DNA of 16,608 nucleotides from Candidatus Omnitrophota bacterium. Lineage in GTDB: Bacteria; Omnitrophota; JACPQZ01. Below the pieces are notes generated by a model, which was not told where the DNA came from, made no database searches, and saw only the letters and a list, made by a program, of their open reading frames with translations. Numbering within the stretch: position 1 is the first letter of the stretch; the number at the start of each line of letters is the position of its first letter. This document shows, in pieces, positions 2,953 to 16,608 of the stretch. The stretch lies in contig JACPQZ010000071.1 in the NCBI GenBank assembly GCA_016190205.1, positions 1 through 16,608 of the forward strand, read 5' to 3'. The position numbers and the translations under genes are program-made.

Positions 2953-4217
2953 GCTTGCGCCGTCAGATGGATCTTGCATCACCCAAGAAGACAGTCCGCG
3001 ACGTCGCTGTGCGCGGAAAACGGGTTCTCATGCGCGTGGATTTCAACTGTCCGCAGCACGAGGACGGCTCCGTTGCGGATGACCTGCGCATCCGGGAGGC
3101 CCTGCCCACGCTTCGCTACTGCTTGGATGAAGGGGCATCCCTCATCCTCATGTCACACCTGGGCCGTCCGGACGGCGCCGTCAAGGAGAAGCTTAGGCTG
3201 GACCCTGTGGCCCGGCGGCTTGAATCCCTCATCGAGTGCCCTGTTATGAAATTAAATGAGATTGTAGGACCTTCCGTGCGGCAGGCAGCGCAAGGTCTTA
3301 AGCCCGGCGGTATCCTCATGCTCGAGAATCTGCGCTTCGACCCGCGGGAGGAAAAGAACGACCCGGCATTTGCCCGGGAACTTGCCTGGCTGGGGGAGAT
3401 ATTTGTAAACGACGCCTTTGGCACGGCCCACCGGGCGCATGCCTCAACCGAAGGGGTGGCGAGGCACCTCCCGGCCGTGGCGGGGCTTTTGATGGCCCGG
3501 GAGATCGCGGCGTTCAATAAGATATTGTCCGAGCCGGAGCATCCCTTCGTGGCCATCATCGGGGGCGCCAAGGTGGAGGGCAAGATCGATGCTATCATGA
3601 ATCTCATGCAGCACGTGGATACCTTTCTCATCGCAGGGCGGATCGGGTTTACCCTGCTCGCCACGACGGATTATCCGCTCGCGAATTCCGGACCCCAGCT
3701 GGACAAGCTGGATGTCGCGCGCCAGATCTTGAGCGAGGCCCGGAGGCGCAAGCGGCGCATCGTGCTTCCGGTGGATCACAGGTCGGGGCCTAAGATCGAG
3801 CGGGGCGCCCCATCCGAGGTAAAGAGGGGTGTACGCGACGGCTGGGCGGCTGCGGATATTGGAACCGAAACGCTGGTCCTGTTTGAAAAGGAGATCGCCA
3901 AGGCCCGCACCATCCTCTGGAATGGACCCGTGGGCGTATTCGAGGTCCCGCCCTATGATCAGGGCTCGCGCGCGCTGGCCGAGGCCCTCGCGCGCTCATC
4001 GGCGACCACTGTCATTGGGGGCGGCGATACGGCCCGCTCGATCCTGGAGTTCGGCCTTGCGGATAAGATGACCCACGTCTCGACGGGGGGAGGGGCAAGC
4101 CTTGAGATGCTGGAGGGGAAGGAACTTCCGGGCGTCGCTGTGCTTCAGAACAGGGAAGCGGGAAGCGGGAAGCGGGAAGCGGGAAGCGGGGTGCGGGAGC
4201 AAAAGTTTCGTGCGTAA
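2949..4217 (+). CDS. pgk: Phosphoglycerate kinase with repeat-encoded C-terminal tail
   Basis: Transfers the acyl phosphate of 1,3-bisphosphoglycerate to ADP, giving ATP and 3-phosphoglycerate. Visible motifs are RVDFN (residues 29-33 from this start), SHLGRP (69-74), GGAKVEGKI, the nucleotide-site WNGPVGVFE and GGGDTARSI, and the C-terminal [19 protein letters not shown]. The start chosen is GTG 2949, which overlaps the gap stop (GTGA), with AAAGGG just upstream. ATG 2967 is an equally possible start and gives a more typical N-terminus. The protein should end near ELPGVAVLQ. Instead it continues about 20 residues through a GGGAAGC heptamer array, which encodes the seven-residue repeats REAGSGK and REAGSGV before a final REQKFRA. 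The tail is unlikely to be catalytic. Confidence 0.96.
4153..4201. repeat. Heptanucleotide tandem array, unit GGGAAGC
   Basis: Five perfect GGGAAGC units (4153-4187) are followed by two decayed units, GGGGTGC and GGGAGCA (to 4201). The array lies inside the last codons of pgk. Because three 7-bp units equal 21 bp, it is translated as a seven-residue repeat. Its last unit holds GGGAG (4195-4199), 10 nt before the tpiA GTG start, so it also appears to serve as the tpiA ribosome binding site. Confidence 0.9.
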
Positions 4218-4983
4218 AAAATTTATCTGCGGCAACTGGAAAATGAATAAGACCACCCAGGAGGCGTGCCAGTTTGCTTCCGAGATCAGGGGTATGGAGA
4301 AAAAATTTGAGGGGGTCGAAGTCGGGATTTGCCCTCCCTACACGGCGCTTCAGGCCGTGCACGGCGTATTGGATGGAGGCTCCATCCTCCTGGGGGCACA
4401 GGACGTGGCGTGGGCACAGGACGGGGCCTACACCGGAGAGGTCTCTCCCCTCATGCTTAAAGAGGTGGGCTGTACGTTTGCCTTGGTGGGCCATTCCGAA
4501 AGGCGCACCCTTCTCGACGAGTCAGACGAGCTCATTAACAGGAAGCTCTTAAGCGCCCTTCAATTCAATATGACCCCGCTCCTGTGTGTGGGGGAGTCGC
4601 TGGACGAGCGGGAGAGGGGAATGACGGAGCGCGTTGTTGAAACACAGCTTAGGGGCTGCCTGGCAGGCACGGATGCCAAGGCCCTGTCTCGCATGGTGAT
4701 TGCGTATGAGCCGGTTTGGGCCATCGGCACCGGCCGGAACGCTACCCCGCACGAGGCCCAGGAGGTGCATGCCTTCGTGCGGCGTTTTTTGGCCGGTCGT
4801 TTCGAGGCCGAGGCGTCACAGGACGCCCAGATTCTCTACGGCGGCAGTGTAACACCTAAGAACGCGGCGGCGCTCTTGGCGCAGCCCGATATTGACGGAG
4901 CGCTCGTGGGCGGCGCGAGTCTTGACGTGCGCTCGTTTACCGACATCATTCAGGCGGCGCGGGAAATCGCGCAGGCGGTGTAA
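4210..4983 (+). CDS. tpiA: Triosephosphate isomerase
   Basis: Interconverts dihydroxyacetone phosphate and glyceraldehyde-3-phosphate. The 257-residue protein has the substrate lysine in GNWKMN (Lys11), the electrophilic histidine in GHSERR (His95), the catalytic base in YEPVWAIGTG (Glu167 with the flexible loop after it) and the phosphate-binding YGGSV (residues 210-214). Start GTG 4210 gives [13 protein letters not shown], matching the family. The frame remains open far upstream, but that extension would read through the pgk repeat array. The start overlaps the end of pgk by 8 bp, and its Shine-Dalgarno is the decayed final unit of the heptamer array. secG follows after 2 bp. Confidence 0.97.
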   Translation: MRKKFICGNWKMNKTTQEACQFASEIRGMEKKFEGVEVGICPPYTALQAVHGVLDGGSILLGAQDVAWAQDGAYTGEVSPLMLKEVGCTFALVGHSERRTLLDESDELINRKLLSALQFNMTPLLCVGESLDERERGMTERVVETQLRGCLAGTDAKALSRMVIAYEPVWAIGTGRNATPHEAQEVHAFVRRFLAGRFEAEASQDAQILYGGSVTPKNAAALLAQPDIDGALVGGASLDVRSFTDIIQAAREIAQAV

Positions 4984-4985
4984 AA

Positions 4986-5462
4986 ATGTTCTTCATCCTT
5001 CTGGTGATCGTTCACGTCATAGTCTGCCTCATTCTTATCCTCGTCATCCTGCTGCAGGCCGGCCGCGGCGCGGGCTTGAGCGGGTTTCTGGGCGGGGGGG
5101 CCACGCAAACATTCTTCGGGACCCGGGCGGGGGATTTTCTGACCCAAGCCACGCGTGTGGCGGCGATCCTTTTTCTCGTCACGTGTTTAGGGCTAGGGGT
5201 GGTTACGGCGCGCCGCAGCCGTTCCCTTCTGGGGGGCGCTCGCGTGGCTCCCCAGATCGATCTTACGGAACCCGTCCCTCCGTTGGAATCGGAGCCGTGG
5301 CCAAGCGAACCGGGTGCGCAAGGTGAAGTGCCACCGGGCGCCGCGGTTGAAACACCTGTTCCGCCGGAGGGTCTTCCGGAAGAGGGCGTAACGCCCCAAA
5401 CCACGGGGGAAGAGACGATTGAAACGGTGTTCCCCGACCTGGACTCCGGCGCCAAGGAGTAA
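4986..5462 (+). CDS. secG: Preprotein translocase subunit SecG
   Basis: Small inner-membrane subunit of the SecYEG translocon that assists protein export. Two membrane segments are visible (residues about 3-23 and 55-77), separated by the conserved glycine-rich stretch LQAGRGAGLSGFLGGG (23-38). At 158 residues it is longer than most SecG proteins. The extra length is a Pro/Glu-rich, probably disordered C-terminal tail from about residue 85. The ATG lies 2 bp after the tpiA stop; linkage of secG to tpiA is common in bacteria. Its stop codon lies at the edge of a 24-bp perfect palindrome, and its last codons are overlapped by the probable start of the binding-protein gene. Confidence 0.92.
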   Translation: MFFILLVIVHVIVCLILILVILLQAGRGAGLSGFLGGGATQTFFGTRAGDFLTQATRVAAILFLVTCLGLGVVTARRSRSLLGGARVAPQIDLTEPVPPLESEPWPSEPGAQGEVPPGAAVETPVPPEGLPEEGVTPQTTGEETIETVFPDLDSGAKE

Positions 5463-7233
5463 TGCGGCCCGGCCGGGCCGCATTGTCCGGCTCGCCGTCA
5501 TCTTCCTCCTCGCCGGGATTGCGGGCTGCGGTCCCCGTCCGGAAGAGCCGGCAAAGGGTGGCGGGGCCCAAGACCAACCTCTTCCCGGCGCGCCGCGGTA
5601 CGGCGGCGAGCTCGTACTGGGAACTACCTCCGACCCCAAATCTTTTAATCCCATCCTCGCGAAAGAGACGTCCACCACCGCGATCACCGGGCTTATTTTT
5701 GAAGGGCTCACGCGTACGGACGGCGTGACGACGCGCGTCGAACCCCATCTGGCCGAATCTTGGGAACACACCCCGGATGGACGCGTCTGGACCTTTCATC
5801 TGCGTCATGATGTGGTTTGGTCGGACGGCGCCCCTTTCACCGCCGACGACGTCGTCTTCACCTTCCGTCAGCTCATATTTAATCCTGATATCCCTTCGAG
5901 CGCGCGAGACATTTTCAGGGTTGGGGACCGGGACATCGAAGTGGAGATGTCCGACACCCACACGGTCGTGTTCCGGCTCGAAGCGCCTTTTGCCCCTTTT
6001 ACGCGGGCCCTGGCGCAGGAAATACTGCCGAGGCACAAGCTCGAGGAGGTGGTTGCGAGAGGTGACTTTAACCACCATTGGGGTGTGGACGCCCGGCCGG
6101 GGGACGTCGTCGGGACGGGCCCTTTCACGCTGGAAAATTACCATGCCGGCGAGCGGGTGGATTTGGTCCGCAATCCAAATTACTGGAAGAAGGACGGCGA
6201 GGGGAGGAACCTTCCCTATCTCGATAGGATCCGCTACCTGATCATGACGAACCTGGACGTGGAGCTCCTCAAGTTTCAGGAGGGGGAGCTCGATTATTAC
6301 GGGATGCGCGGCTCGGATTACGCCATCTTAAAACCCCAGGAAAAAGCCGGTAAGTTTACCGTGATGAACACGGGACCTGCCTTCGGCACGAATTTTCTGG
6401 TCTTTAACCAAAACACGGGCGTCCACCCCGCGACGGGAAGGCCCTATCTGGAGCCGCACAAGCTCGCGTGGTTTAGGGACGCGCGTTTCCGCAGGGCCGT
6501 GGCGCACGCGATCGACCGGCCCAGCATTATCCAGATTGTCATGAATGGGCTGGGCTTCGAGCAGGACGCGGCCATGAGCCCTTCAGCCGGTTTTTTCTAT
6601 CATCCCGGCGTGGTCCGGCATGATTACAATCCCGATGCCTCGAAGGCCCTCCTGGCCGAAATGGGTCTCGCGGACCGGGACGGGGACGGGGTGAGAGAGG
6701 ATATGGAAGGGCGCCCCCTCGAATTTTCACTCAACACGAATTCGGGGAACACGGAGCGCATTCGGATCGCGGAGATTGTGCGCAAGGACCTGGAAGTGAT
6801 CGGCTGCCGCGTATTTTTTACCCCCCTTGAATTCAACCACCTCGTGACTAAGCTCAATGTCTCCTTTGACTGGGAGGCCGTCATACTGGGTCTTACGGGC
6901 GGCATCGAACCCCACTTCGGGGCGAACGTGTGGTTCTCCTGGGGCCAGCTTCATCTCTGGTTTCCCCAGCAGGAAAAGCCCTCCACCGAGTGGGAAGCGC
7001 GTATAGACGAGCTTTATACAAGTGCTGCGCAGGAGTTGGATGAGGGCATGCGCAAGCTCCTCTATGACGAATGGCAGCGCATCGTCTCCGAGGAACTTCC
7101 TTTGATCTACACGGTGCTCCCGCCGAATCTCTTCGCCATCCGCAATAAGTTCGGGAACCTCAAGCCCACGGCCTACGGAGGGGCGTTCCATAATATTGAG
7201 GAGATATACCTATTAGATACCAGAGACCAGTAA
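5419..7233 (+). CDS. Peptide-type ABC transporter substrate-binding lipoprotein (SBP_bac_5 family)
   Basis: Extracytoplasmic binding protein that delivers peptides or similar ligands to the permeases encoded downstream. A signal peptide with hydrophobic core LAVIFLLAGIAG ends in a lipobox with Cys37 from this start, so the mature protein is lipid-anchored. Family features include the early YGGELVLGTTSDPKSFNPI, the LAESWEHTPDGRVWTFHLR segment and RRAVAHAIDRPSI. At 604 residues it resembles the larger DppA/OppA/YejA-type members. The start is uncertain: TTG 5419 has a GGGGGA ribosome binding site about 8 nt upstream and overlaps secG, whereas the ATG at 5462 is out of frame. The last codons (DTRDQ) and the stop lie inside an ACCAG heptamer array. 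The substrate cannot be assigned. Confidence 0.9.
   Translation: MKRCSPTWTPAPRSNAARPGRIVRLAVIFLLAGIAGCGPRPEEPAKGGGAQDQPLPGAPRYGGELVLGTTSDPKSFNPILAKETSTTAITGLIFEGLTRTDGVTTRVEPHLAESWEHTPDGRVWTFHLRHDVVWSDGAPFTADDVVFTFRQLIFNPDIPSSARDIFRVGDRDIEVEMSDTHTVVFRLEAPFAPFTRALAQEILPRHKLEEVVARGDFNHHWGVDARPGDVVGTGPFTLENYHAGERVDLVRNPNYWKKDGEGRNLPYLDRIRYLIMTNLDVELLKFQEGELDYYGMRGSDYAILKPQEKAGKFTVMNTGPAFGTNFLVFNQNTGVHPATGRPYLEPHKLAWFRDARFRRAVAHAIDRPSIIQIVMNGLGFEQDAAMSPSAGFFYHPGVVRHDYNPDASKALLAEMGLADRDGDGVREDMEGRPLEFSLNTNSGNTERIRIAEIVRKDLEVIGCRVFFTPLEFNHLVTKLNVSFDWEAVILGLTGGIEPHFGANVWFSWGQLHLWFPQQEKPSTEWEARIDELYTSAAQELDEGMRKLLYDEWQRIVSEELPLIYTVLPPNLFAIRNKFGNLKPTAYGGAFHNIEEIYLLDTRDQ
5461..5484. repeat. 24-bp perfect palindrome at secG/binding-protein junction
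   Basis: The sequence from 5461 to 5484 equals its own reverse complement (half-site AATGCGGCCCGG). It begins inside the secG stop codon and lies in the codons just before the signal-peptide core of the binding protein. In RNA it would fold into a very GC-rich hairpin with a GGCC loop. No T-tract follows, so it is not a standard terminator. It could stall ribosomes or RNase, or be a remnant of a palindromic element. Confidence 0.85.
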
Positions 7234-7268
7234 CCAGTAACCAGAAGAAACTAGAAACCAGATACCAG
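7217..7268. repeat. Heptanucleotide tandem array, unit NNACCAG
   Basis: Six ACCAG-type heptamers (variants ATACCAG, AGACCAG, TAACCAG and AAACCAG), with one 10-bp interruption at 7245-7254. The binding-protein stop codon TAA (7231-7233) is part of the third unit, so the array begins inside the gene. The same unit type recurs at 12583-12666 and 16568-16608. Confidence 0.85.
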
Positions 7269-7274
7269 GTCCGT

Positions 7275-7337
7275 ACTTCGAACTTCGAACATCGACTTTC
7301 GAAGTCCGAAGTTCGAGGTTCGATGTCCGGTCGTCGG
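7275..7337. repeat. Heptanucleotide tandem array, unit NNTTCGA
   Basis: Nine consecutive heptamers, the first seven ending in CGA (ACTTCGA twice, then ACATCGA, CTTTCGA, AGTCCGA, AGTTCGA, GGTTCGA) and two decayed units at the right. The TTCGA core is nearly self-complementary, so the array forms the inner helix of the long hairpin at 7216-7365. Confidence 0.8.
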
Positions 7338-7396
7338 TTTCTTCTGGTTTCTGGTCTCTGGTATCTTCTGGTATCTGGCAACTGGTATCTGGTTAC
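7338..7396. repeat. Heptanucleotide tandem array, unit TGGTNNC (complement of the ACCAG array)
   Basis: Eight heptamers such as TGGTATC, TGGTTTC, TGGTCTC and TGGCAAC, with a 3-bp slip at 7366-7368. It is the inverted form of the ACCAG array on the left and forms the right arm of the long hairpin. Between its end and the dppB start (7397-7429) there is a weak TTTAAT (7412-7417) but no convincing -35 box. Confidence 0.82.
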
Positions 7397-7429
7397 ATTC
7401 GTTCGACTCTCTTTAATCCGGAATCAGTT

Positions 7430-8395
7430 ATGGCTGCCTATGTTTTCCGACGTGTCCTAATTGCGGTCCCGCTTTTGCTGGCCATGACCCTGGTGGCTTT
7501 TATTTTCATCCAGATGGCGCCGGGGGACTGGTTTGATACCCTGCGGCTTAATCCCCAAATCTCTCAAGACACAATCGCCCGCTACGAGGCCCTGTACCAT
7601 CTCGACCAGCCGGTCCTGGTTCAATATTTCTATTGGCTCGGAAACCTGGCCCGCGGGGATCTGGGCTTTAGCTTTGAACACAAGAGCCCCGTGGCGTCCG
7701 TCATCCGGTCGCGTGTGGGAAATACGCTGATCCTTGCGGTCGTCTCGATCGTGGTGGCCTGGGGTTTCTCGATCCCGCTGGGTATCTTGAGCGCCGTTCG
7801 AAAAAACAAACTCACCGATCGCGTCCTGCAGGTCATAGCTTTTATCGGCATGTCCATACCCAATTTCTTTTTTTGCCTCCTCCTTTTGTACGCGGCCTCG
7901 GTGACGGGCGTCCTTCCCTTGGGCGGGATCCGCTCGGTGGCGTTTGATTCGCTTTCTCTGGGGGGCAAGGTGGGCGATGCGGCCCGGCATCTGGTCATCC
8001 CCACCCTGGTGCTTTCCACCGCTTCTTTCGCGGGGCTCATGCGCGTCATGCGCGGGACACTGCTGGATGTCCTCAAGGCGCCCTACGCCCTTGCGGCCCG
8101 CGCCAAGGGCCTTCCGGAATGGAAGGTCCTCGGACGGCACGCGGTGCCCAATGCCATCAATCCCCTCATCACGATATTCGGTTTTGAGTTTTCGGGGCTT
8201 TTGAGCGGCGCGGCGATCACGGAGATCATTTTAAACTGGCCGGGCTTAGGCTCGCTCATGCTCTCCGCGGTGCGCAGTCAGGATCTTTACCTCGTCATGG
8301 GGAGCATGGTGATGGGGGGACTCCTGCTCGTTTTGGGAAATCTCATCGCCGACTGCCTTTTAGCGTGGATCGATCCGCGGATACAATTGAGATGA
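7430..8395 (+). CDS. dppB: Peptide-type ABC transporter permease, DppB/OppB family
   Basis: Inner-membrane permease half that pairs with the dppC product to form the transport channel. The 321-residue protein begins with the family N-terminus MAAYVFRRVLIAVPLLLAMT and a first membrane segment (about 9-29). A periplasmic loop follows that includes YHLDQPVLVQYFYWLGNLARGDLG. The coupling EAA loop is at about 219-243, with AKGLPEWKVLGRHAVPNA. Length is normal. The start ATG 7430 has only a weak GGA-type ribosome binding site. It is separated from the binding-protein gene by about 195 bp of heptamer arrays, so its expression is probably reduced relative to that gene. Peptide is the likeliest cargo, but related systems carry nickel or sugars. 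Confidence 0.93.
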   Translation: MAAYVFRRVLIAVPLLLAMTLVAFIFIQMAPGDWFDTLRLNPQISQDTIARYEALYHLDQPVLVQYFYWLGNLARGDLGFSFEHKSPVASVIRSRVGNTLILAVVSIVVAWGFSIPLGILSAVRKNKLTDRVLQVIAFIGMSIPNFFFCLLLLYAASVTGVLPLGGIRSVAFDSLSLGGKVGDAARHLVIPTLVLSTASFAGLMRVMRGTLLDVLKAPYALAARAKGLPEWKVLGRHAVPNAINPLITIFGFEFSGLLSGAAITEIILNWPGLGSLMLSAVRSQDLYLVMGSMVMGGLLLVLGNLIADCLLAWIDPRIQLR

Positions 8396-8422
8396 TGCTC
8401 ATGAAGTATGGTTCGAGGTGCA

Positions 8423-8501
8423 CGTCATTGCGAGTTCGCCGAAGGCGAACGAAGCAATCTCATGAGATTGCTTCGCCCGCTTCGCGGGGCTCGCAATGAC
8501 G
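8423..8501. mobile_element. Cloverleaf-like GTCATTGCGAG palindromic repeat (MITE/REP type)
   Basis: The terminal inverted repeat CGTCATTGCGAG (8423-8434) is exactly complementary to CTCGCAATGACG (8490-8501). Three hairpins lie inside: TTCGCC/GGCGAA (8435-8449), a perfect 26-bp palindrome with half-site CGAAGCAATCTCA (8450-8475), and CCCGC/GCGGG (8476-8488). The whole forms a four-way cruciform. From memory, GTCATTGCGAG...GAAGCAATCTC palindromes are widespread dispersed repeats in unrelated bacteria. The dppC ATG (8496-8498) lies in its right terminal repeat. No target-site duplication was seen. Confidence 0.85.
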
Positions 8502-9563
8502 CCGGCGCAAATCGCGTGGGAAAAATTGGGGCGTCATCCTCTGGCGATGCTCGCGCTCGTCGTGCTCTTCCTGCTTTACGGGGGCGCCCTCTTTGCGGAT
8601 GTCCTGGCTCCCTACGGCATGGACAGCGAGGTGAGGGCGCATTCCTATCACCCGCCTACCCGCCTCCATTGGGTGGATGCGGAAGGGGGGGTAAAGCCGC
8701 TTCCTTTCATATACGCGCACGAGTCCAGGCTCAATGAGCTATACCAGAGAGTCTGGCGGGAGGACCGGACACGCGCGTTCCCCTTGCGGTTTTGGGTGCG
8801 GGGCGATTCTTATAAGTTCTTGGGATTAATCCCATTTGACCGCCACCTCGTGGGCGTGGACAAGCCCGCGCGGCTTTATATCCTGGGAGCCGATTCCAGA
8901 GGAAGGGATCTTTTGAGCCGCATCCTCTTCGGCGCCCGCATCTCGCTCTCCGTGGGCCTCTTGGGAATACTCATCAGCTTTTCGCTTGGGTCCGTGGTCG
9001 GAGGGATATCGGGCTATTTCGGAGGATGGGTGGATAATCTCCTCATGCGCCTCGCCGAGATGATCATGATGATACCGGGGTTTTATCTCATGCTGACCTT
9101 GCGCGCGGCCTTTCCGGCGAATCTTTCCGGTTTTCACGCCTATCTCTTGATCGTGGTGATCTTGAGTTTCATCGGATGGGCCTCGCTTGCGCGCATCATC
9201 CGCGGGATGGCGCTTGCGATCCGTACCCGGGACTATTGTCTGGCCGCGCGGGCCTTGGGCGTCAGTCACCTCGCTATCGTGATCCGCCATATCATTCCGA
9301 ATACCTTTAGTTACCTCATCGTGGCAGCTACCCTGGCGGTTCCGGGATACATCTTGGGGGAGGCTACTCTCTCCTTTTTGGGGTTAGGAATCCAGGATCC
9401 CCAGGCGAGCTGGGGAAACCTCTTGTCGGAGGCCATGGCGATCGCCCAAATCCGGTTCCACCCCTGGATCCTCTGGCCGGGCGTCTTTATCTTCGTGAGC
9501 GTGATGGCGTTTAACCTTGTTGGAGACGGGCTGCGGGATGCCCTGGATCCTAGGAGTGAGTGA
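8496..9563 (+). CDS. dppC: Peptide-type ABC transporter permease, DppC/OppC family
   Basis: Second permease half of the transporter. The 355-residue protein has a first membrane segment at about 15-35 (after WEKLGRHPLAMLA) and the conserved LGADSRGRDLLSRILFGARISL at about 130-151. The EAA coupling loop is at 247-270 (ARALGVSHLAIVIRHIIPNT), and it ends in the typical DGLRDALDPR. The periplasmic stretch between residues 40 and 130 is about 90 residues, longer than in ordinary DppC and more like YejE-type permeases. The only upstream start in the frame is ATG 8496, because the frame is closed by TGA at 8463. That ATG lies inside a palindromic repeat element. GGGG (8486-8489), also part of the element, is a possible ribosome binding site. 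Confidence 0.93.
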   Translation: MTPAQIAWEKLGRHPLAMLALVVLFLLYGGALFADVLAPYGMDSEVRAHSYHPPTRLHWVDAEGGVKPLPFIYAHESRLNELYQRVWREDRTRAFPLRFWVRGDSYKFLGLIPFDRHLVGVDKPARLYILGADSRGRDLLSRILFGARISLSVGLLGILISFSLGSVVGGISGYFGGWVDNLLMRLAEMIMMIPGFYLMLTLRAAFPANLSGFHAYLLIVVILSFIGWASLARIIRGMALAIRTRDYCLAARALGVSHLAIVIRHIIPNTFSYLIVAATLAVPGYILGEATLSFLGLGIQDPQASWGNLLSEAMAIAQIRFHPWILWPGVFIFVSVMAFNLVGDGLRDALDPRSE

Positions 9564-9605
9564 ACGTGAGACGTAGGACGTGGGACGTGGGACGTGGGAC
9601 GTAGA
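9564..9605. repeat. Heptanucleotide tandem array, unit ACGTGGG
   Basis: Exactly six heptamers (three ACGTGGG plus ACGTGAG, ACGTAGG and ACGTAGA). They start at the base after the dppC stop and finish on the A of the dppD ATG, so the intergenic space is entirely array. GGGA (9596-9599) lies 5 nt before the ATG and looks like the dppD ribosome binding site. Confidence 0.9.
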
Positions 9606-10585
9606 TGAGTAAAGCGGCCCTTGTCGCAGTACAAAATCTGGGCGTTGAGTTTGCCACCCGACGGGGCAGGCTCAAAGCCGTTGTCGATTTAAATCTCGCC
9701 ATTGAAGAAGGTGAGCTTTTTTGTCTGGTGGGGGAATCCGGATGCGGCAAGAGCGTCACGGCGCTTGCGCTCATGCGGCTCTTGCCCGAGGAGGCCCTTC
9801 AGTCAGGCACCGTCCGTTTCCGCGGGAGGGATTTGGGCTCTTTCGGATGGAGGGATTTAAGCGGCCTGCGGGGTTCGCAAATCTCCATGATCTTTCAGGA
9901 CCCGTTCGAGTCTTTAAACCCCCTAATGCGCATCGGTGACTGGATCCGGGAGACGTTGGAGGCGCACCGGATGCTCTCGGGGCGCGCCGCCCGGCAAAGA
10001 GTGCTGGAACTCCTTGAGGAGGTGCGCATCCCGGACCCGGAGCGGTTCGCAAAAAGTTACCCGCATGAGGCCAGCGGGGGGATGCGGCAGAGGGCCATGA
10101 TCGCAACGGCGCTATCGTGCAGCCCCTCCTTTTTGATCGCGGATGAACCGACCACGGCCCTGGACGTGACGACCCAGGCGGAGATCCTCTCGCTCTTAAG
10201 CGATATCCGCAAAAGGCGAGGCATGACGGTCCTTTTTATTACGCATGATCTCGCCCTGGTTTCGCAGATTGCCGATCGGGTTGGGGTCATGTACGCCGGG
10301 CGGCTGGTTGAGGTTGCACCCAGCGGCGAGTTTTTTAAAATGCCCCAACACCCTTATTCGAGGGCCCTTCTAGAGTGTAGCCCCCGTCTTGAGGTGCTCG
10401 GGGCGCCCCTTGCGGCGATCCAGGGCGAGGTGCCGAACCCCCTTGCTCGACCCGCCGGCTGCGCCTTTCATCCCCGCTGCCCGATCGCCGTGGAGCGCTG
10501 CCGCGAGGAAGATCCTGCGCTCGACCATCGCGGCGGAGATGAATCACATCAAGTCGCTTGTTGGGAATGGGACAAATGGCTATGA
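9605..10585 (+). CDS. dppD: Peptide-type ABC transporter ATP-binding protein, DppD/OppD family
   Basis: Cytosolic ATPase that powers the transporter as a heterodimer with the dppF product. In 326 residues it carries Walker A GESGCGKS (43-50), the signature SGGMRQRAMIA, Walker B FLIADEPTTALD and the H-loop FITHDLAL. The C-terminal oligopeptide-transporter extension has the cysteine cluster CAFHPRCPIAVERC. The signature reads ASGGM rather than the usual LSGGM, a mild oddity. ATG 9605 is preceded by a heptamer array that supplies GGGA as ribosome binding site. The stop overlaps the dppF start (ATGA), so the two ATPases are translationally coupled. Confidence 0.95.
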   Translation: MSKAALVAVQNLGVEFATRRGRLKAVVDLNLAIEEGELFCLVGESGCGKSVTALALMRLLPEEALQSGTVRFRGRDLGSFGWRDLSGLRGSQISMIFQDPFESLNPLMRIGDWIRETLEAHRMLSGRAARQRVLELLEEVRIPDPERFAKSYPHEASGGMRQRAMIATALSCSPSFLIADEPTTALDVTTQAEILSLLSDIRKRRGMTVLFITHDLALVSQIADRVGVMYAGRLVEVAPSGEFFKMPQHPYSRALLECSPRLEVLGAPLAAIQGEVPNPLARPAGCAFHPRCPIAVERCREEDPALDHRGGDESHQVACWEWDKWL

Positions 10586-11376
10586 GCGAAAATATTCTAC
10601 TTGAAGCCGGAGGCTTAAAGAAATATTATCCCATACGCGGGGGTGTTTTCCTGCGCACACGGGGGGTCGTGCGCGCCGTGGACGGGGTGGATCTTGCGCT
10701 TCGCCCGCGGGAGACCCTGGGGCTCGTAGGTGAATCGGGGTGCGGCAAAAGCACGCTGGCCCGGCTCCTGCTCAAACTTGAAGAGCCCACCGAGGGGGTT
10801 GTCCGATTTCAGGGGCCGGGAGCTCAGGCCGGCCGCGTCGCGTTTCGGCGCAGCGTCCAGGGCGTGTTTCAAGATCCTTATGGGACCCTGGATCCGCGCT
10901 TTACCATTCAGGCCATCATGGAGGAGGGGTTGAAGAGCCTTTTCGCCTCGGAGGGTCGCACGAAAAGGAGGGAGCGCGTGCGCCGCGCACTCCAGGAGGT
11001 CGGCCTCGAGGATTCCATGCTGGACCGTTACCCGCACGAGTTTAGCGGAGGCCAAAGACAGAGAATCGGGATTGCCCGGGTACTCGTCCTTGACCCGCAG
11101 ATCCTCATATGCGATGAGCCGGTCTCGAGTCTCGATGTCTCCGTTGCGGCACAGATCATCACTCTCTTGAGGAAGCTTAAAGAGGAGCGCGGCCTGGGAG
11201 TATTGCTCATCAGTCACAACTTGGCCGTGGTGAGCGCCTTGGCGGACCGCGTCGCGGTCATGAAGCAAGGCCGGATGGTGGAATCTGGTTCTGCACGCGA
11301 GGTCATTTTGAACCCACAGCACGCGTATACCCGTACCTTGATCCGATCGGTCCCGCGCTTAAGGAGGGCGGCATGA
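10582..11376 (+). CDS. dppF: Peptide-type ABC transporter ATP-binding protein, DppF/OppF family, short form
   Basis: Second ATPase of the peptide-type transporter. From ATG 10582 the protein is 264 residues, with Walker [10 protein letters not shown] (50-58), signature FSGGQRQR, Walker [13 protein letters not shown] and H-loop [10 protein letters not shown]. This start overlaps the dppD stop as ATGA and gives [21 protein letters not shown], the expected N-terminus. In-frame ATGs at 10567 and 10576 and a TTG at 10558 would add only a few residues. It stops right after [14 protein letters not shown], so it lacks the C-terminal extension and cysteine cluster usual in DppF/OppF. Short forms are known, so this need not be a defect. 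Its stop overlaps the next gene by ATGA. Confidence 0.93.
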
Positions 11377-12644
11377 TGAAGCGCTGGCTCAAGCCACTTG
11401 GAATTGTGCTCCTTGTTCTCGTACTCATCGCCGGCGTGGCGATGCTCGGTCTAAATTTATGGCTCGCTCCTTACGTCAGGGACCGTCTGGAAACCCAGGT
11501 CCAGCTAAAATCGCCCTTTGAACTTGAGATAGGAAGCCTTTCCTTCGCGCCTCCCGTGAGGGTGGTGCTCAAAAACGTGGTACTCAAGGACAAGCGCGGG
11601 ATGGAGCCGGTGTTTTCCGTGGCTAAGGTCGACGCCGCCTTTCAACTCGGGCGGCTTCTCAAAAGGCAGATTGGACTTAGGAGTCTCTCCATCGAGGGGC
11701 CCGAATTTACGTTTAGAAGACCCAAGCCCCGCCCGCAGGTCGGGGAGCCCTCCGCCGGTGCGACTCCAGCGGCGCCGGCCGCGCCTAGCGGTGACACAAC
11801 AGGCGACGCAGAGGTTGCGCCGGCCGGGGGAGGAGCATTTTCCGGTCTCTTCATTGCCTCTTTGGTTGTGCGGGATGGGGAATTCACATGGTTGGACCCC
11901 AGGCCTACGGGGGAGGTGCGACTTTCGTTCAAGATCAAAAAGCTCACAGCACAGCCTTTATCGGTCCCAGGCTCGCGTGAGCCGGTGCATTTTGAACTTT
12001 CCTCTGTCCTTCAGGAAATGCCCGGAGAACCGGGCTTGAAGGCAAGGGGCTGGTTTTCTCCCCAGGAGGGCGATCTGGACATTAGGTTGAGCGCAAATGA
12101 CCTGGACTTAAGGAACTTAAGCCCGTATTATAATCGGTGGTTGGCAGGCACGCTTGAAAGCGGGAAAGCGGATCTTGAGTTGAGTGCGCAGGCCGAGGCC
12201 CACAACTTGGATGGCCGCTGTCATATCACCATCCGCGATCTGAATTACACCCCGCCTGCGGCGGAGACTGATCTCCTGGGCGTTCCCTCGTCCCTTTTTC
12301 TGGCCTATCTCGCGCGCGGGGGAGGACGGCTGGAGCTGGATATCCCCATCAGAGGGCGGCTGGACCGCCCCCAGGCCGATTGGGGGCCGTTTGTTAAGGA
12401 CGCCTTCCAACAATCGTTCCGGCAGGCGGTGAGCTCGGATATCGAGCGGGTGCTGGGTGCAGGCAGTCGAGTGCTGGGCGGGGCATTGTCGGGAGAGGGT
12501 TCGGTTACGGAAAAGGTAAAAAGGCTCCAGGAGGGTATGGGGGGGCTCATGAAAGATCTCCTCGGCACCGTAAGCGAGCAAGAGCCAGCGCCGAGTGACC
12601 AGCAGCCCGCGGCCGGCGACCAGCAACCAGCGGCAAGCGACTAG
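11373..12644 (+). CDS. AsmA-like/DUF748-type membrane-anchored protein
   Basis: The family consists of envelope proteins anchored in the inner membrane with a large periplasmic beta-rich body, often linked to outer-membrane lipid transport or assembly. Here a single N-terminal membrane segment (about residues 9-29) is followed by WLAPYVRDRLETQV and a beta-rich LKNVVLKDKRG/SIEGPEFTFRRP region typical of the family. A Pro/Ala-rich linker lies at about 112-150, with a second beta-rich region to about residue 340. AAGGAGGG (11361-11368) is a strong ribosome binding site for ATG 11373, which overlaps the dppF stop. The last residues, with repeats PSDQQ, PAAGDQQ and PAASD, are encoded by an ACCAGC heptamer array. 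Exact role unknown; it supports a diderm cell envelope. Confidence 0.8.
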   Translation: MMKRWLKPLGIVLLVLVLIAGVAMLGLNLWLAPYVRDRLETQVQLKSPFELEIGSLSFAPPVRVVLKNVVLKDKRGMEPVFSVAKVDAAFQLGRLLKRQIGLRSLSIEGPEFTFRRPKPRPQVGEPSAGATPAAPAAPSGDTTGDAEVAPAGGGAFSGLFIASLVVRDGEFTWLDPRPTGEVRLSFKIKKLTAQPLSVPGSREPVHFELSSVLQEMPGEPGLKARGWFSPQEGDLDIRLSANDLDLRNLSPYYNRWLAGTLESGKADLELSAQAEAHNLDGRCHITIRDLNYTPPAAETDLLGVPSSLFLAYLARGGGRLELDIPIRGRLDRPQADWGPFVKDAFQQSFRQAVSSDIERVLGAGSRVLGGALSGEGSVTEKVKRLQEGMGGLMKDLLGTVSEQEPAPSDQQPAAGDQQPAASD

Positions 12645-12666
12645 CAACCAGCGACCAGCGACAAAG
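12583..12666. repeat. Heptanucleotide tandem array, unit RACCAGC
   Basis: Twelve heptamers in one phase, of which GACCAGC and AACCAGC recur and GGCAAGC, GACTAGC and AGCCCGC are variants. It covers the last 20 codons of the AsmA-like gene and its stop, and runs on to within 10 bp of the corA ribosome binding site. In the coding part it yields a seven-residue protein repeat. Confidence 0.88.
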
Positions 12667-12691
12667 CGGTTATTTAAGAGGAATACATGCC

Positions 12692-13672
12692 GTGATCCGA
12701 TCTTATGTGTACCGAGTCAAGGAGCAGCGTCTGGATAAGGACGTGCCTTTTGACGAACTCGCCCAGGTCATCGAGAAGGGGGAAGACCGTATCTGGCTGG
12801 ATTTTGAGGACAAGCTGGAGGATGAGGAGGTGGATCTCTTAAGCGGGGCCTTTGGCCTTCACGCCCTTGCCATCGAGGATTGCATCATGGTCAATACGCG
12901 GGCCAAGGTCGAGGCCTATGATGGTTATATCTTCGTCGTGCTGCACGCGGCCCGCAAGGATCTTAAGATCGTCGATATCGAGCAGGTGGAGCTCGATATC
13001 TTTCTGGGCAAGCAGTTTTTGATCAGCGTCCACCAGGGAAGCGTGGCCGGCATTACGGCCATCGAAGAGCGTCTCCAGCGCAACCCCCATCAGCTGTTGG
13101 GCCAGGGCACGGACCGTTTCTTTCACGCGATCTATGACCGCCTGGTGGACAACTATTTTCCGCTCATGGACCGTGTGGATGACGAGATCGATGAGATCGA
13201 GGACTGCATCGTAAAGGATCCCAGGGACAACGTCATCGGCCGCATGGTGGAGCTCCGCAAAGAGCTCGTATCCCTGCGCCGGGTCTTGAGCCCCCTGCGC
13301 GAGACGACCCAGCTTTTGACGCGGGAAAATTTCAACAATCTCTTGAGCGAAAACGTGCGCATTTATTTTAGAGACGTGTATGACCACATCGCCCGCATCC
13401 TGGACTTGATCGATAGCTACCGCGACGCGGTGTCAACGGCTTTTGAAACCTACCATTTCATGATCTCCAACCGCACCAACGACATCATGCGGACCTTGAC
13501 GACGATCACGACCATCATGCTGCCCCTGACCGTTATCACGGGCGTGTACGGCATGAACTTTAAGTTTATGCCTGAGCTCGAACACCCGTTCGGTTACCTG
13601 GGTGTCCTCGCCTTTATGGCGGTTTTGAGCCTAGGCATGCTCGCCTACTTCCGCAGGCAACACTGGCTTTAA
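12692..13672 (+). CDS. corA: CorA-family magnesium/divalent cation transporter
   Basis: Forms a pentameric inner-membrane channel for Mg2+ (or Co2+/Ni2+). The 326-residue protein has an N-terminal cytosolic domain, a long helical segment at about 150-265 and a first membrane helix ITTIMLPLTVITGVYGMNF containing the signature GMN (287-289). The second membrane helix is GYLGVLAFMAVLSLGMLAYF, followed by a short basic tail. Start GTG 12692 is preceded by AAGAGG (12676-12681). A nearer ATG at 12687 is in another frame and encodes only Met-Pro before a stop that overlaps the GTG. The junction with the AsmA-like gene is a heptamer array; a second array follows the stop. Confidence 0.95.
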   Translation: MIRSYVYRVKEQRLDKDVPFDELAQVIEKGEDRIWLDFEDKLEDEEVDLLSGAFGLHALAIEDCIMVNTRAKVEAYDGYIFVVLHAARKDLKIVDIEQVELDIFLGKQFLISVHQGSVAGITAIEERLQRNPHQLLGQGTDRFFHAIYDRLVDNYFPLMDRVDDEIDEIEDCIVKDPRDNVIGRMVELRKELVSLRRVLSPLRETTQLLTRENFNNLLSENVRIYFRDVYDHIARILDLIDSYRDAVSTAFETYHFMISNRTNDIMRTLTTITTIMLPLTVITGVYGMNFKFMPELEHPFGYLGVLAFMAVLSLGMLAYFRRQHWL

Positions 13673-13677
13673 AAGCC

Positions 13678-13712
13678 GTGCTTCGTGCATCGTGCTTCGT
13701 GCATCGTGTAAC
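13678..13712. repeat. Heptanucleotide tandem array, unit GTGCWTC
   Basis: Five units: GTGCTTC and GTGCATC alternate twice, then a decayed GTGTAAC. The alternation makes a 14-bp higher-order period. It lies 5 bp after the corA stop. GGCTTT/AAAGCC (13665-13677) around that stop is a weak hairpin without a T-tract. Confidence 0.88.
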
Positions 13713-13726
13713 TGTCTGCCTCCCAT

Positions 13727-13755
13727 TTGTAAGTACCAGCCAGCTCTGCTAAAAT
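13727..13755 (+). promoter_or_regulatory. Possible sigma-70-type promoter for thiG-leuC-leuD
   Basis: TTGTAA (13727-13732), a 17-bp spacer and TAAAAT (13750-13755) in the AT-richer gap between corA and thiG. The -35 match is modest. The leader to thiG would be about 100 nt; I looked in it for TPP riboswitch features and found none. AAAAGG (13845-13850) is the thiG ribosome binding site. Confidence 0.4.
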
Positions 13756-13858
13756 AAGCTAGATAGTCGATCGCGAGAGCAGGACACGCACCCGCCTCAA
13801 TATCGTCATATCCCTTTCTGTTTAAGCATGTTATGATAACTGTCAAAAGGTTAATGCT

Positions 13859-14632
13859 ATGGACAAAGCGCTTGTCATTGGGGACACGGCACTTACATCC
13901 CGGCTGATTGTGGGCACGGGCAAGTACAAGACGTTTGAGATCATGCGTGCGGCGCACGAGGCGTCGGGGGCGCACATGGTGACCGTGGCCATCCGCCGCG
14001 TGAATCTCGATCGCAGCAAGGGAGAGTCGCTTTTAGATTATATTGATCTGAAGCGTTATACCCTCCTTCCGAATACGGCGGGCTGCTACACGGCGGAGGA
14101 CGCCATTCGCACCGCGCACCTTGCGCGCGAGGCGTGCAGGACTGATATGATCAAGTTGGAAGTGATCGGGGACGAGCGTACTTTGCTGCCGGACAACGAA
14201 GCTTTGCTGGAGGCGACACGCGCGCTTGTAAAAGAAGGTTTTGTTGTCATGCCCTATACGAATGATGACCCCATTATGGCCAAGAAGCTGGAAGACGCCG
14301 GCGCGGCCTGTGTGATGCCGCTCGCCGCGCCGATCGGTTCCGGAATGGGGGTCCAGAACCGCTTGAACATCCAGTTTATCCTGGAATCCGTCAAGGTGCC
14401 GGTCATCGTGGATGCCGGGGTGGGGACCGCCTCCGATGCCGCGATCGCCATGGAGCTCGGAGTGGATGGCGTCCTCATGAATACCGCTATTGCGGGGGCG
14501 CAGGACCCCGTGCGCATGGCGCACGCCATGCGGCTTGCGGTAGAGGCCGGGCGAGAGGCGTTTCTCGCGGGGCGTATCCCTAAAAAGACCTATGCCACGG
14601 CCTCGAGCCCTCTGGAGGGAGTCGTCAAGTGA
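13859..14632 (+). CDS. thiG: Thiazole synthase
   Basis: Builds the thiazole phosphate moiety of thiamine from 1-deoxy-D-xylulose-5-phosphate, dehydroglycine and ThiS-thiocarboxylate. The 257-residue protein has [17 protein letters not shown] near the N-terminus, the Schiff-base lysine in MIKLEVIGD (Lys99), [16 protein letters not shown] and the phosphate-binding [20 protein letters not shown]. Length is normal. ATG 13859 follows AAAAGG by 8 nt. No thiS, thiF, thiH or thiO is in the window. It instead overlaps leuC by GTGA, so a thiamine gene is coupled to leucine biosynthesis. Function is secure; the sulfur carrier must be encoded elsewhere. Confidence 0.96.
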
Positions 14633-15924
14633 AGCAGACGATGACGCAGAAGATCCTGGCGCGACACACGGGGAAAAGTTCTGTGGAGCCGGGTGAGAAC
14701 GTCTGGGTAAACGCAGATGTCCTTATGACGCACGATATCTGCGGGCCCGGAACGATTGGGATCTTTAAGCAGGAGTTTGGTCCAAAGGCCCGGGTGTGGG
14801 ACCCTGACAAGGTGGTGATCGTGCCAGACCACTATATCTGGACGGAAGATGCCAAGGCGCGCCGCAACGTAGACATCCTGCGGGAGTTTGCCGAGGAGCA
14901 GGGGATCAAGAATTATTACGACGTGGGCGAGCGGTACAAGGGCGTCTGCCACATCGCCCTTCCGGAAGAAGGGCATACCCGGCCCGGGGAAGTTTTGTTC
15001 GGCACGGATTCACACACCTGTACGGCAGGCGCCTTCGGCGAGTTTGCCACGGGGATTGGAAACTCGGACGCGGCCTTCGTGCTGGGGACGGGGAAGCTCT
15101 GGGTCAAGGTCCCCGAGACCATGCGCTTCGTATTTCATGGGAAGAGGCCTCCGTATCTCATGGCGAAAGATCTCATCCTGACCATCATCGGGGATATTGG
15201 GACCGATGGGGCCACTTACCGCGCCATGGAGTTTGCGGGTGACGGCGTCATGAGTTTGAGCGTCGAGGAGAGAATGACCCTCTGCAACATGGTGATCGAG
15301 GCGGGGGGTAAGAATGGGGTGATTGAACCGGATGACGTGACCCAGACGTTTGTAAGAGCGCGCACAGGCAAGGCCTTTGAGCCTCTGCATGCGGACCCAG
15401 GGGCGCAATACATCAATGAAAAGGAGTATGACGTTTCGCGCCTGGAGCCCACGGTGGCCAAACCCCACTCTCCGGATAACCGCGCCCTAGCAAGGGAACT
15501 TAAAGGACACAAGTTAAACCGCGCCTATCTGGGTTCCTGCACGGGCGGCAAGATTGAGGACTATCAGGCGGCCGCACGGATTCTCAAGGGCCGCCGTGTG
15601 AAGATAGAGACCTTTGTAGTGCCGGCCACGACTTTTGTGGCGAAGGAAATTCGAAGGCTTAAGATGGACAATGAGACGCTGTATGAGATTTTCGAAAAGG
15701 CCGGGTGCCAGATGGGCGAGCCGGGCTGCCAGGCCTGCCTGGGGGGGCCCCAGGACACCTTCGCGCGCGCGAACGGGGCCGAGGTCGTGATCTCGAGCAC
15801 CAACCGCAATTACCCCGGCCGCATGGGTTCTCCGCGGGCGCAGATTTACCTGGCATCGCCCTTGACCGTGGCTGCGAGCGCTCTTACGGGCCATATCACG
15901 GATCCCCGGGAGTTTATCGGTTAG
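14629..15924 (+). CDS. leuC: 3-isopropylmalate dehydratase large subunit
   Basis: Isomerises 2-isopropylmalate to 3-isopropylmalate in leucine synthesis, together with LeuD. At 431 residues it is a short-type LeuC/homoaconitase-family large subunit. The [4Fe-4S] ligands are Cys304 (GSCTGG), Cys367 and Cys370 (GCQAC), in the family spacing C-x62-C-x2-C. The segments [27 protein letters not shown] and [21 protein letters not shown] closely recall plant and cyanobacterial-type LeuC. Start GTG 14629 overlaps the thiG stop and has GGAGG (14614-14618) 10 nt upstream; ATG 14641 is an alternative. A homoaconitase role cannot be fully excluded from this subunit, but LeuD supports isopropylmalate. Confidence 0.94.
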
Positions 15925-15955
15925 ATGAATCGTTACGAAGGAGGAAGGAAGAGGG

Positions 15956-16003
15956 ACGATGGACGAGTACGCTGTACGCACGACGCAGTACGCGGTACGA
16001 GCA
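15956..16003. repeat. Heptanucleotide tandem array, unit ACGCNGT
   Basis: Five exact heptad steps (15969-16003), each starting ACG (ACGCTGT, ACGCACG, ACGCAGT, ACGCGGT, ACGAGCA). To the left are ACGATGG and a one-base-short ACGAGT. It fills most of the leuC-leuD gap and ends 1 bp before the leuD ATG. A purine-rich stretch (15938-15955) precedes it. No normal Shine-Dalgarno for leuD is visible between. Confidence 0.8.
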
Positions 16004-16004
16004 C

Positions 16005-16608
16005 ATGGATAAGACCATAAAGGGCCGGATATACTGCCTCGGTGACAATATAGACACCGATCAGATCATACCTGCCCAGTATCTCAATTTAAACCCGGCT
16101 ATCGAAGAAGAACGGCGGGCCTTCGGGCGGTATGCTTTTTCGGGGGTGCCGGAGGGCCAGCGGGGTTTGCCCGATGGAAATATCCCCTTCATCGCGAATG
16201 GCGCACCGCGCTCCGGCTACGCGGTCGTCGTGGCCGGAAAAAACTTTGGCTGCGGCTCAAGTCGCGAGCACGCGCCACTGGCCGTTCAGATGGCGGGCGT
16301 CAAGATCGTCATTGCCGAGTTTTACGCCAGGATCTTCTTCCGAAATTGCGTCAATGGCGGGTATCTTATTCCCCTCGAGTCGGCGGAGAGGCTCGTGGAC
16401 GTGTTAAAGACGGGGGATGAGGTCGAAGTCGAATTGCGGGGCGGCCGGCCGCGCCTCGTGCGCGGCCGGCAGGAATTTGCCTTAAAGCCGATCGGAGACA
16501 TCCTTCCCATCATTGAGGCCGGGAACGTGTTTGAGTACGCCCGGCGGAGTGGGATGATAACAAAGAAACCAGACACCAGTAACCAGAAACCAGATAGATT
16601 CCAGAAAC
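16005..16608 (+). CDS. leuD: 3-isopropylmalate dehydratase small subunit (partial at 3' end)
   Basis: Swivelling small subunit of isopropylmalate isomerase. From ATG 16005 the protein reads MDKTIKGRIYCLGDNIDTDQ, then IIPAQYLNLNP and the catalytic-loop motif GCGSSREHAP. FYARIFFRNCVNGG and LKPIGDILPIIEAGNVFEYARRSGMI follow; this last segment matches the usual end of plant/cyanobacterial-type LeuD at about residue 184. The frame does not stop there. It continues at least 17 codons through an ACCAG heptamer array (PDTSNQKPD) and leaves the window without a stop. No clear ribosome binding site precedes the ATG, because the gap is filled by another heptamer array. The true length depends on sequence to the right. 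Confidence 0.92.
   Translation, partial: MDKTIKGRIYCLGDNIDTDQIIPAQYLNLNPAIEEERRAFGRYAFSGVPEGQRGLPDGNIPFIANGAPRSGYAVVVAGKNFGCGSSREHAPLAVQMAGVKIVIAEFYARIFFRNCVNGGYLIPLESAERLVDVLKTGDEVEVELRGGRPRLVRGRQEFALKPIGDILPIIEAGNVFEYARRSGMITKKPDTSNQKPDRFQK
16568..16608. repeat. Heptanucleotide tandem array, unit ACCAGNN (cut by window end)
   Basis: Four clean heptamers (ACCAGAC, ACCAGTA, ACCAGAA and ACCAGAT; 16568-16595), then decayed units up to the edge. It is the same unit type as at 7217-7268 and is read in frame as the tail of leuD. The array may continue beyond the window. Confidence 0.82.

Follow-up and report, generated by a model that had tools for sequence, protein, structure and literature searches.

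Heptamer arrays in the window

The window is a 16.6 kb stretch of DNA comprising one entire contig of an Omnitrophota MAG (1.65 Mb, 76 contigs, 92.8% complete), and its genes of general housekeeping and transport are flanked by tandem arrays of 7-bp units (Table 1). Its GapA has its nearest matches in Candidatus Omnitrophota MAGs. The first-pass annotation had named such arrays at seven loci, and all seven are real: TRF called period 7 at every one of them and added an array at 15935-15966, just before the sixth. Lag-7 runs numbered 6 in the window vs 0.0 in shuffles. Across lags 2-30 the only other runs were at 14, at 21 and a single one at 24, which sits inside the same element as lag-7 signal. 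The arms at 7215-7268, 7343-7396 and 16564-16608 belong to one element family, the ATAGATTCCAG variant of the last matching sequence found in the aligned ACCAG arms described below. The 7215-7396 element is predicted to fold into a 180-nt hairpin with an RNA folding energy of -96.1 kcal/mol and a z of -10.5; a search for known RNA families gave no matches in the window.

Table 1. Heptamer arrays and composite elements in the window
Feature	Position	Strand	Context
GGGAAGC array, 5 perfect units and one variant unit	4153..4197 (TRF 4153-4198)	+	pgk-tpiA junction
Composite palindromic ACCAG element	7215..7396	.	gap between SBP_bac_5 gene and first permease gene
Left arm, ACCAGNN heptads: four units, AAG, three units	7215..7268	+	
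TTCGA-type heptads, inner stem and loop of the 7215-7396 element	7275..7323 (TRF 7277-7323)	+	
Right arm, NNCTGGT heptads, inverse of left arm, differing at N positions	7343..7396 (TRF 7342-7394)	-	
ACGTGGG array, immediately 3' of permease stop	9564..9602	+	between second permease gene and first ABC ATPase gene
ACCAGCG-type array	12585..12662	+	3' end of AsmA/DUF748-like gene
CGTGCWT array, CGTGCTT/CGTGCAT alternating	13677..13708	+	5 bp past CorA-family gene stop
Degenerate GAAGGAC array, touching next array	15937..15966 (TRF 15935-15966)	+	
ACGCWGT-family module, four units then ACG	15966..15999	+	
Left-type arm with ATAGATTCCAG variant, second ACCAG element, cut by contig end	16564..16608 (TRF 16564-16594)	+	

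Two repeats of other kinds also occur in the window. Positions 1-288 belong to a dispersed repeat that reaches ~650 bp and often sits at contig ends. Its copies, 74-94% identical and free of heptamer arrays, lie at L236 14475-15128, L022 12075-12648, L020 5411-6043 and 18413-18928, and L254 7985-8312; inverted segments are present, the window part has no Rfam match, and the repeat may be either a mobile element or a structured RNA. The palindromic repeat at 8423-8505, with GCAATCTCATGAGATTGC at its centre and copies at L020, L247, L248, L018 and L017, resembles a REP-type element and seems to have no relation to the heptamers.

Period and unit families across the genome

The window's own genome was sampled twice, as 360 kb (sample 1) and as 335 kb for which the tests were fixed before analysis (sample 2), 0.70 Mb in total. 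Because many of the contigs in both samples had been picked for matches to GGGAAGC or CGTACTG, array densities are biased; the comparison of one period with another should be little affected. Sample 1 held ~89 lag-7 arrays vs 0-2 at other lags (one extra count per lag came from an all-N stretch), and sample 2 held 91 vs 0-3, with the same exceptions in both, namely 14/21/28, 24 and 25. The total is thus ~180 period-7 arrays, while almost all other periods between 2 and 30 gave 0-3 per sample. Lags 24 and 25 can be taken as the sum of three heptads and a 3-base spacer within ACCAG arms. The sharp genome-wide peak at lag 7 foreseen in the first-pass annotation is therefore present, and the equal frequency of periods 5, 6, 8 and 9 that it had held out as contrary evidence was absent from the 0.70 Mb, since these periods are far rarer than 7.

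The same annotation had described the units as unrelated and only the period as conserved. The period is indeed common to several units, but the units recur and are not specific to their loci: 207 of the 252 arrays in 0.70 Mb sort into ten reference families, the sizes of which include ACCAGNN 64, ACGCAGT 36, CGTGCWT 23 and GGGAAGC 22. The GGGAAGC unit recurs at many loci, usually as C(GGGAAGC)4G, and the genome contains 71 pattern matches to CGTACTG. Where a unit column alternates between two letters, A/T is the commonest pair (150 vs 52 A/G and 44 C/T).

The arrays might be ordinary heptanucleotide microsatellites, each arising independently at its locus through slippage that favours 7-bp units. 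General heptamer over-representation and the slippage idea have been published (PMC4692102), and a hypothesis in print links the preference for 7 to polymerase contact length. Consistent with this explanation, period 7 is prominent among the arrays in loci from several other phyla, and the GGGAAGC array in the window has an extra unit. However, identical units are shared by tens of loci and by distant genomes, and independent microsatellite origin is judged unlikely in light of this and of the length, pairing and copying of the arrays.

Array length and borders

Tolerantly measured array length had its mode at 30-31 bp in sample 1 (34 of 122 arrays), fell at 30-32 bp for 51 of 130 arrays in sample 2, and in G160, an Omnitrophota genome from another family, fell at 29-34 bp for 16 of 33 arrays with a peak at ~31. 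The 30-32 bp mode corresponds to four units and a further 2-4 bases, and it holds for units with a G-tract and for units without; microsatellites would be expected to become steadily rarer with length and not to peak at four units. In sample 1 the perfect runs of two and of four units had seemed cleanly separated, but this impression weakened in sample 2, where the trough between short and four-unit runs was slight (n=13 at 21-26 bp vs n=11 at 27-33 bp).

Array borders hold a fixed register despite unrelated flanks: 14 of 22 GGGAAGC arrays start with CGGG, and 30 of 36 ACGCAGT arrays end with ACG. Microhomology-mediated duplication would likewise give identical 2-3 bases at array start and end, a point in favour of the microsatellite explanation. 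Some long arrays are abutting four-unit blocks of differing units, and others drift in phase from unit to unit, as microsatellites may. Given the longer and the drifting arrays and the extra units, slippage clearly contributes too and expansion in place also happens.

In Xanthomonas, a preference for four units of the heptamer GGGAATC has been tied to G-quadruplexes (PMC4692102), which need four G-tracts. An array such as (GGGAAGC)4 could form one, and the four-unit mode and inverted pairs seen here agree with that report. Yet G-tracts able to form a quadruplex are confined to the GGG families, most arrays are ACCAGNN, ACGCAGT or CGTGCWT, and the four-unit mode is shared by ACGCAGT, ACCAGNN, GTCGCTG and CGTGCWT, all of which lack G-runs of three. 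G-quadruplex formation therefore cannot explain the four-unit mode generally; it is refuted as a general explanation, could apply to the GGG families alone, and is very improbable as the basis of the arrays. Still less probable, to the point of being nearly negligible, is an artefact in which short-read assembly collapsed longer perfect arrays. The MAG is in 76 contigs and the window terminates within an element, as such an artefact might leave them, but imperfect arrays, which are unable to collapse, have equal length, other genomes agree, and four units also occur in published Xanthomonas genomes (PMC4692102).

Inverted pairing and heptad mismatches

Inverted matches made up 89 of the 263 array pairs lying no more than 400 bp apart vs a shuffled-label mean of 16 and maximum of 27, an excess that independent microsatellites would not be expected to produce; with ACCAG left out there were 47 inverted pairs vs 6.6 by chance. 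For about half of the arrays an inverted partner was detected at this distance, which would allow long hairpins; for the other half none was detected. A nested three-family element gave a folding z of -13.8. About 20 ACCAG elements, from a search that joined only arms <1.2 kb apart within 0.70 Mb of the 1.65 Mb genome, have inverted arms of 52-55 bp.

In an alignment of 19 of these elements, all set in one orientation, the pentamer core was conserved and its positions were ~90-100% paired, while one position per heptad was mostly mismatched (<10% paired at one column), usually as A.A or T.T. The two arms of an ACCAG element match each other less well than exchanged arms do in 99.8% of permutations. 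A like tendency is seen in pairs of CGTACWG arrays, which differ at W at a rate of 0.64 vs 0.49 (p 0.0035), and in CGTGAWT pairs, at 0.83 vs 0.50 (p 0.035); the pairs in these two comparisons are few or overlapping and are not independent. Outside ACCAG, the A/T kind accounts for 63 of 136 stem mismatches. The mismatch rule was formulated post hoc, on the same data.

Two further arrangements were noted in elements of these families. A GGCGGATCCGCC palindrome lies within the inner region of ACCAG elements (L012 10698-10835, L024 15289-15578), as if inserted, and at L020 43-238 and 3165-3423 an 81-bp direct repeat has ACGCAGT arrays alternating with a conserved 43-bp segment.

Position relative to genes

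By simple longest-ORF calls, the arrays lie mostly at gene junctions and often occupy the whole gap from stop to start. Long-ORF stops lie near the array border for 146 of 252 arrays vs 271 of 1260 random positions. The arrays thus cluster near stops, but at no one fixed distance, and the idea that they insert exactly at stop codons is rejected.

Such positions raise the possibility that the arrays are selected structural elements, either intercistronic hairpins for mRNA processing or stability or protein-binding arrays with 7-bp spacing. Most arrays fall in co-directional gaps within gene runs, the predicted folds cited above are very stable, and the mismatches are regularly spaced, all as this explanation would have it. 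Conversely, tandem, convergent and divergent gaps are used roughly in line with their background counts, the polar ACCAG element seemed, by eye, to face either way relative to genes, and the neighbours in the window belong to the general classes already mentioned. Selection for structure is thus considered quite unlikely as the main explanation.

Copies and distribution in other genomes

The first-pass annotation had argued against copying of a single mobile repeat, but dispersed repeats are plainly copied: the 7215-7396 element has 88-89% identical copies at three other sites in the genome, and the ~20 ACCAG elements share its arms. Because these near-identical copies lie at different loci, sequence comparison shows that composite elements are copied whole to unrelated sites, which again disagrees with microsatellites of independent origin. 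In a moderately related genome with few arrays (median 44% protein identity over 49 matches), one syntenic gene pair nearly abuts; the gap of that pair holds a CGTACTG array in the window's own genome.

Heptads of the ACCAG type occur in several other Omnitrophota families with G+C of 32-50%, an exact (ACGCAGT)4ACG lies in G160 between different flanks, and a CGTACWG module of equal length is found in G039. Acidobacteria, Gemmatimonadetes, Nitrospirae and other groups likewise have loci with isolated heptamer arrays. In four other genomes (L258, L260, L261, L263) ACCAG arrays open with TAAGTAACCAG or TGAGTAACCAG, as if from a stop codon. A universal vocabulary of units is rejected: (ACGCAGT)3ACG was missing from viral contigs and from 396 genomes in the phylum to which L042, an Acidobacteria MAG, belongs, and the idea is also weakened by the restriction of CGTACTG to 3 of 193 Omnitrophota, the window's own genome included. 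The 31-mer of (ACGCAGT)4ACG type was absent from the plasmids searched.

Candidate enzymes

No transposase was linked to the modules. The genome has four Y1_Tnp (RAYT-like) genes, and at two of the four there are heptamer arrays within loci of ~3.3 kb; RAYT-driven spread by these genes was rejected, the Y1 flanks that were read showing other inverted repeats or nothing evident and not heptamer arms. In L173, inverted GGGGTCAGGTCTTGCATTATCACAT sequence flanks a gene for a RAYT-like Y1 transposase near 1400-2340. A reverse transcriptase as the templater of the repeats was likewise dismissed, with 0 matches to PF00078 in the 92.8% complete genome. The genome also has no match to SbcD (TIGR00619) or MutS_V (PF00488). 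SbcD scored above cut-off in 1 of 193 genomes of the phylum and MutS_V matched in 67 of 193; because absence is thus common across the sampled Omnitrophota, loss of SbcD or MutS is rejected as the cause and is at most permissive.

Relation to known repeat systems

The STRR heptamers of filamentous cyanobacteria are heptamer tandem arrays. Three heptamers are mentioned for Calothrix (PMC4692102). The GGGAATC and GGGGA(C/T)T arrays of Xanthomonas and Nostoc share with those described here the 7-bp unit, the four-unit mode, a genome-wide scatter, a mostly intergenic position near ORFs and frequent inverted pairs, convergent in Xanthomonas and Nostoc (PMC4692102). In contrast, the work on Xanthomonas and Nostoc dealt with a single G-rich unit type in each genome and interpreted it as a G-quadruplex (PMC4692102), whereas the Omnitrophota arrays comprise about ten families, mostly without G-tracts, include nested composites and show A.A/T.T mismatches when the two arms are paired. 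Heptamer repeats that favour four units and occur as inverted pairs are therefore known in another group, and the case is less isolated than the first-pass annotation, which knew of no system that makes many unrelated heptamers at gene ends, had supposed. The open-licence literature searched gave no instance of several unit families built to one geometric plan, of nested composites or of the heptad mismatch pattern.

Other likenesses are partial. As in REPINs (PMC3116915), the elements are extragenic, dispersed inverted doublets with predicted hairpins in a genome with RAYT-like Y1 genes, but their arms are heptad arrays in place of short palindromic REPs, and no such arms were seen to flank the RAYT-like genes. 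The terminal inverted repeats of the ACCAG elements resemble those of a MITE, although no target-site duplication was evident by eye in the flanks. The TAACTGA repeats of marine Beggiatoaceae are likewise heptamer direct repeats at many loci with possible horizontal spread; they have one fixed unit, lie mostly just upstream of start codons and are described in the abstract without hairpin arms (PMC4679880).

Dispersed hairpin modules as a proposed explanation

The period, length mode, border register, inverted pairing and junction location are regular features of the arrays, and the explanation favoured here, with about even confidence as to the main process, is that the arrays are arms of small, dispersed, non-autonomous hairpin elements that behave like REPINs or MITEs. 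The basic module would be ~30-32 bp long, with four heptamers and borders in fixed register, for example C(GGGAAGC)4G or (ACGCAGT)4ACG, and two modules in opposite orientation would form a hairpin. Larger elements nest two or three families, the ACCAG arms having 4+3 heptads. Simple modules may spread as units, as suggested by their fixed sequence, length and register amid unrelated flanks, probably via single-stranded or hairpin intermediates as proposed for REPINs; slippage in register would afterwards add or alter units, and gene junctions may be the sites that tolerate insertions. With one A.A or T.T mismatch in every heptad, perfect stems of more than about 6 bp would be few; as a guess, the mismatches might shield the hairpin from RNase III or from recombination between its arms.

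For annotators of MAGs, the arrays call for caution, as they lengthen ORFs at gene ends and can terminate contigs. An excess of heptamers in bacteria was noted earlier without a mechanism; in this genome heptamers account for nearly all of the short-period repeats and fall into several families that share one length and one plan of paired arms. The period can therefore be separated from sequence and from the G-quadruplex, and the cause of seven and of four becomes testable. Possibly, though doubtfully, the arrays represent an undescribed mobile or machine-made class of modules defined by geometry and not by sequence, with four heptamers per arm and a two-armed stem broken by one A.A or T.T mismatch every 7 bp, realized in many units both inside one genome and across distant ones. 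If so, there would be an enzyme or a selective force that counts ~30 bp and steps of 7 bp.
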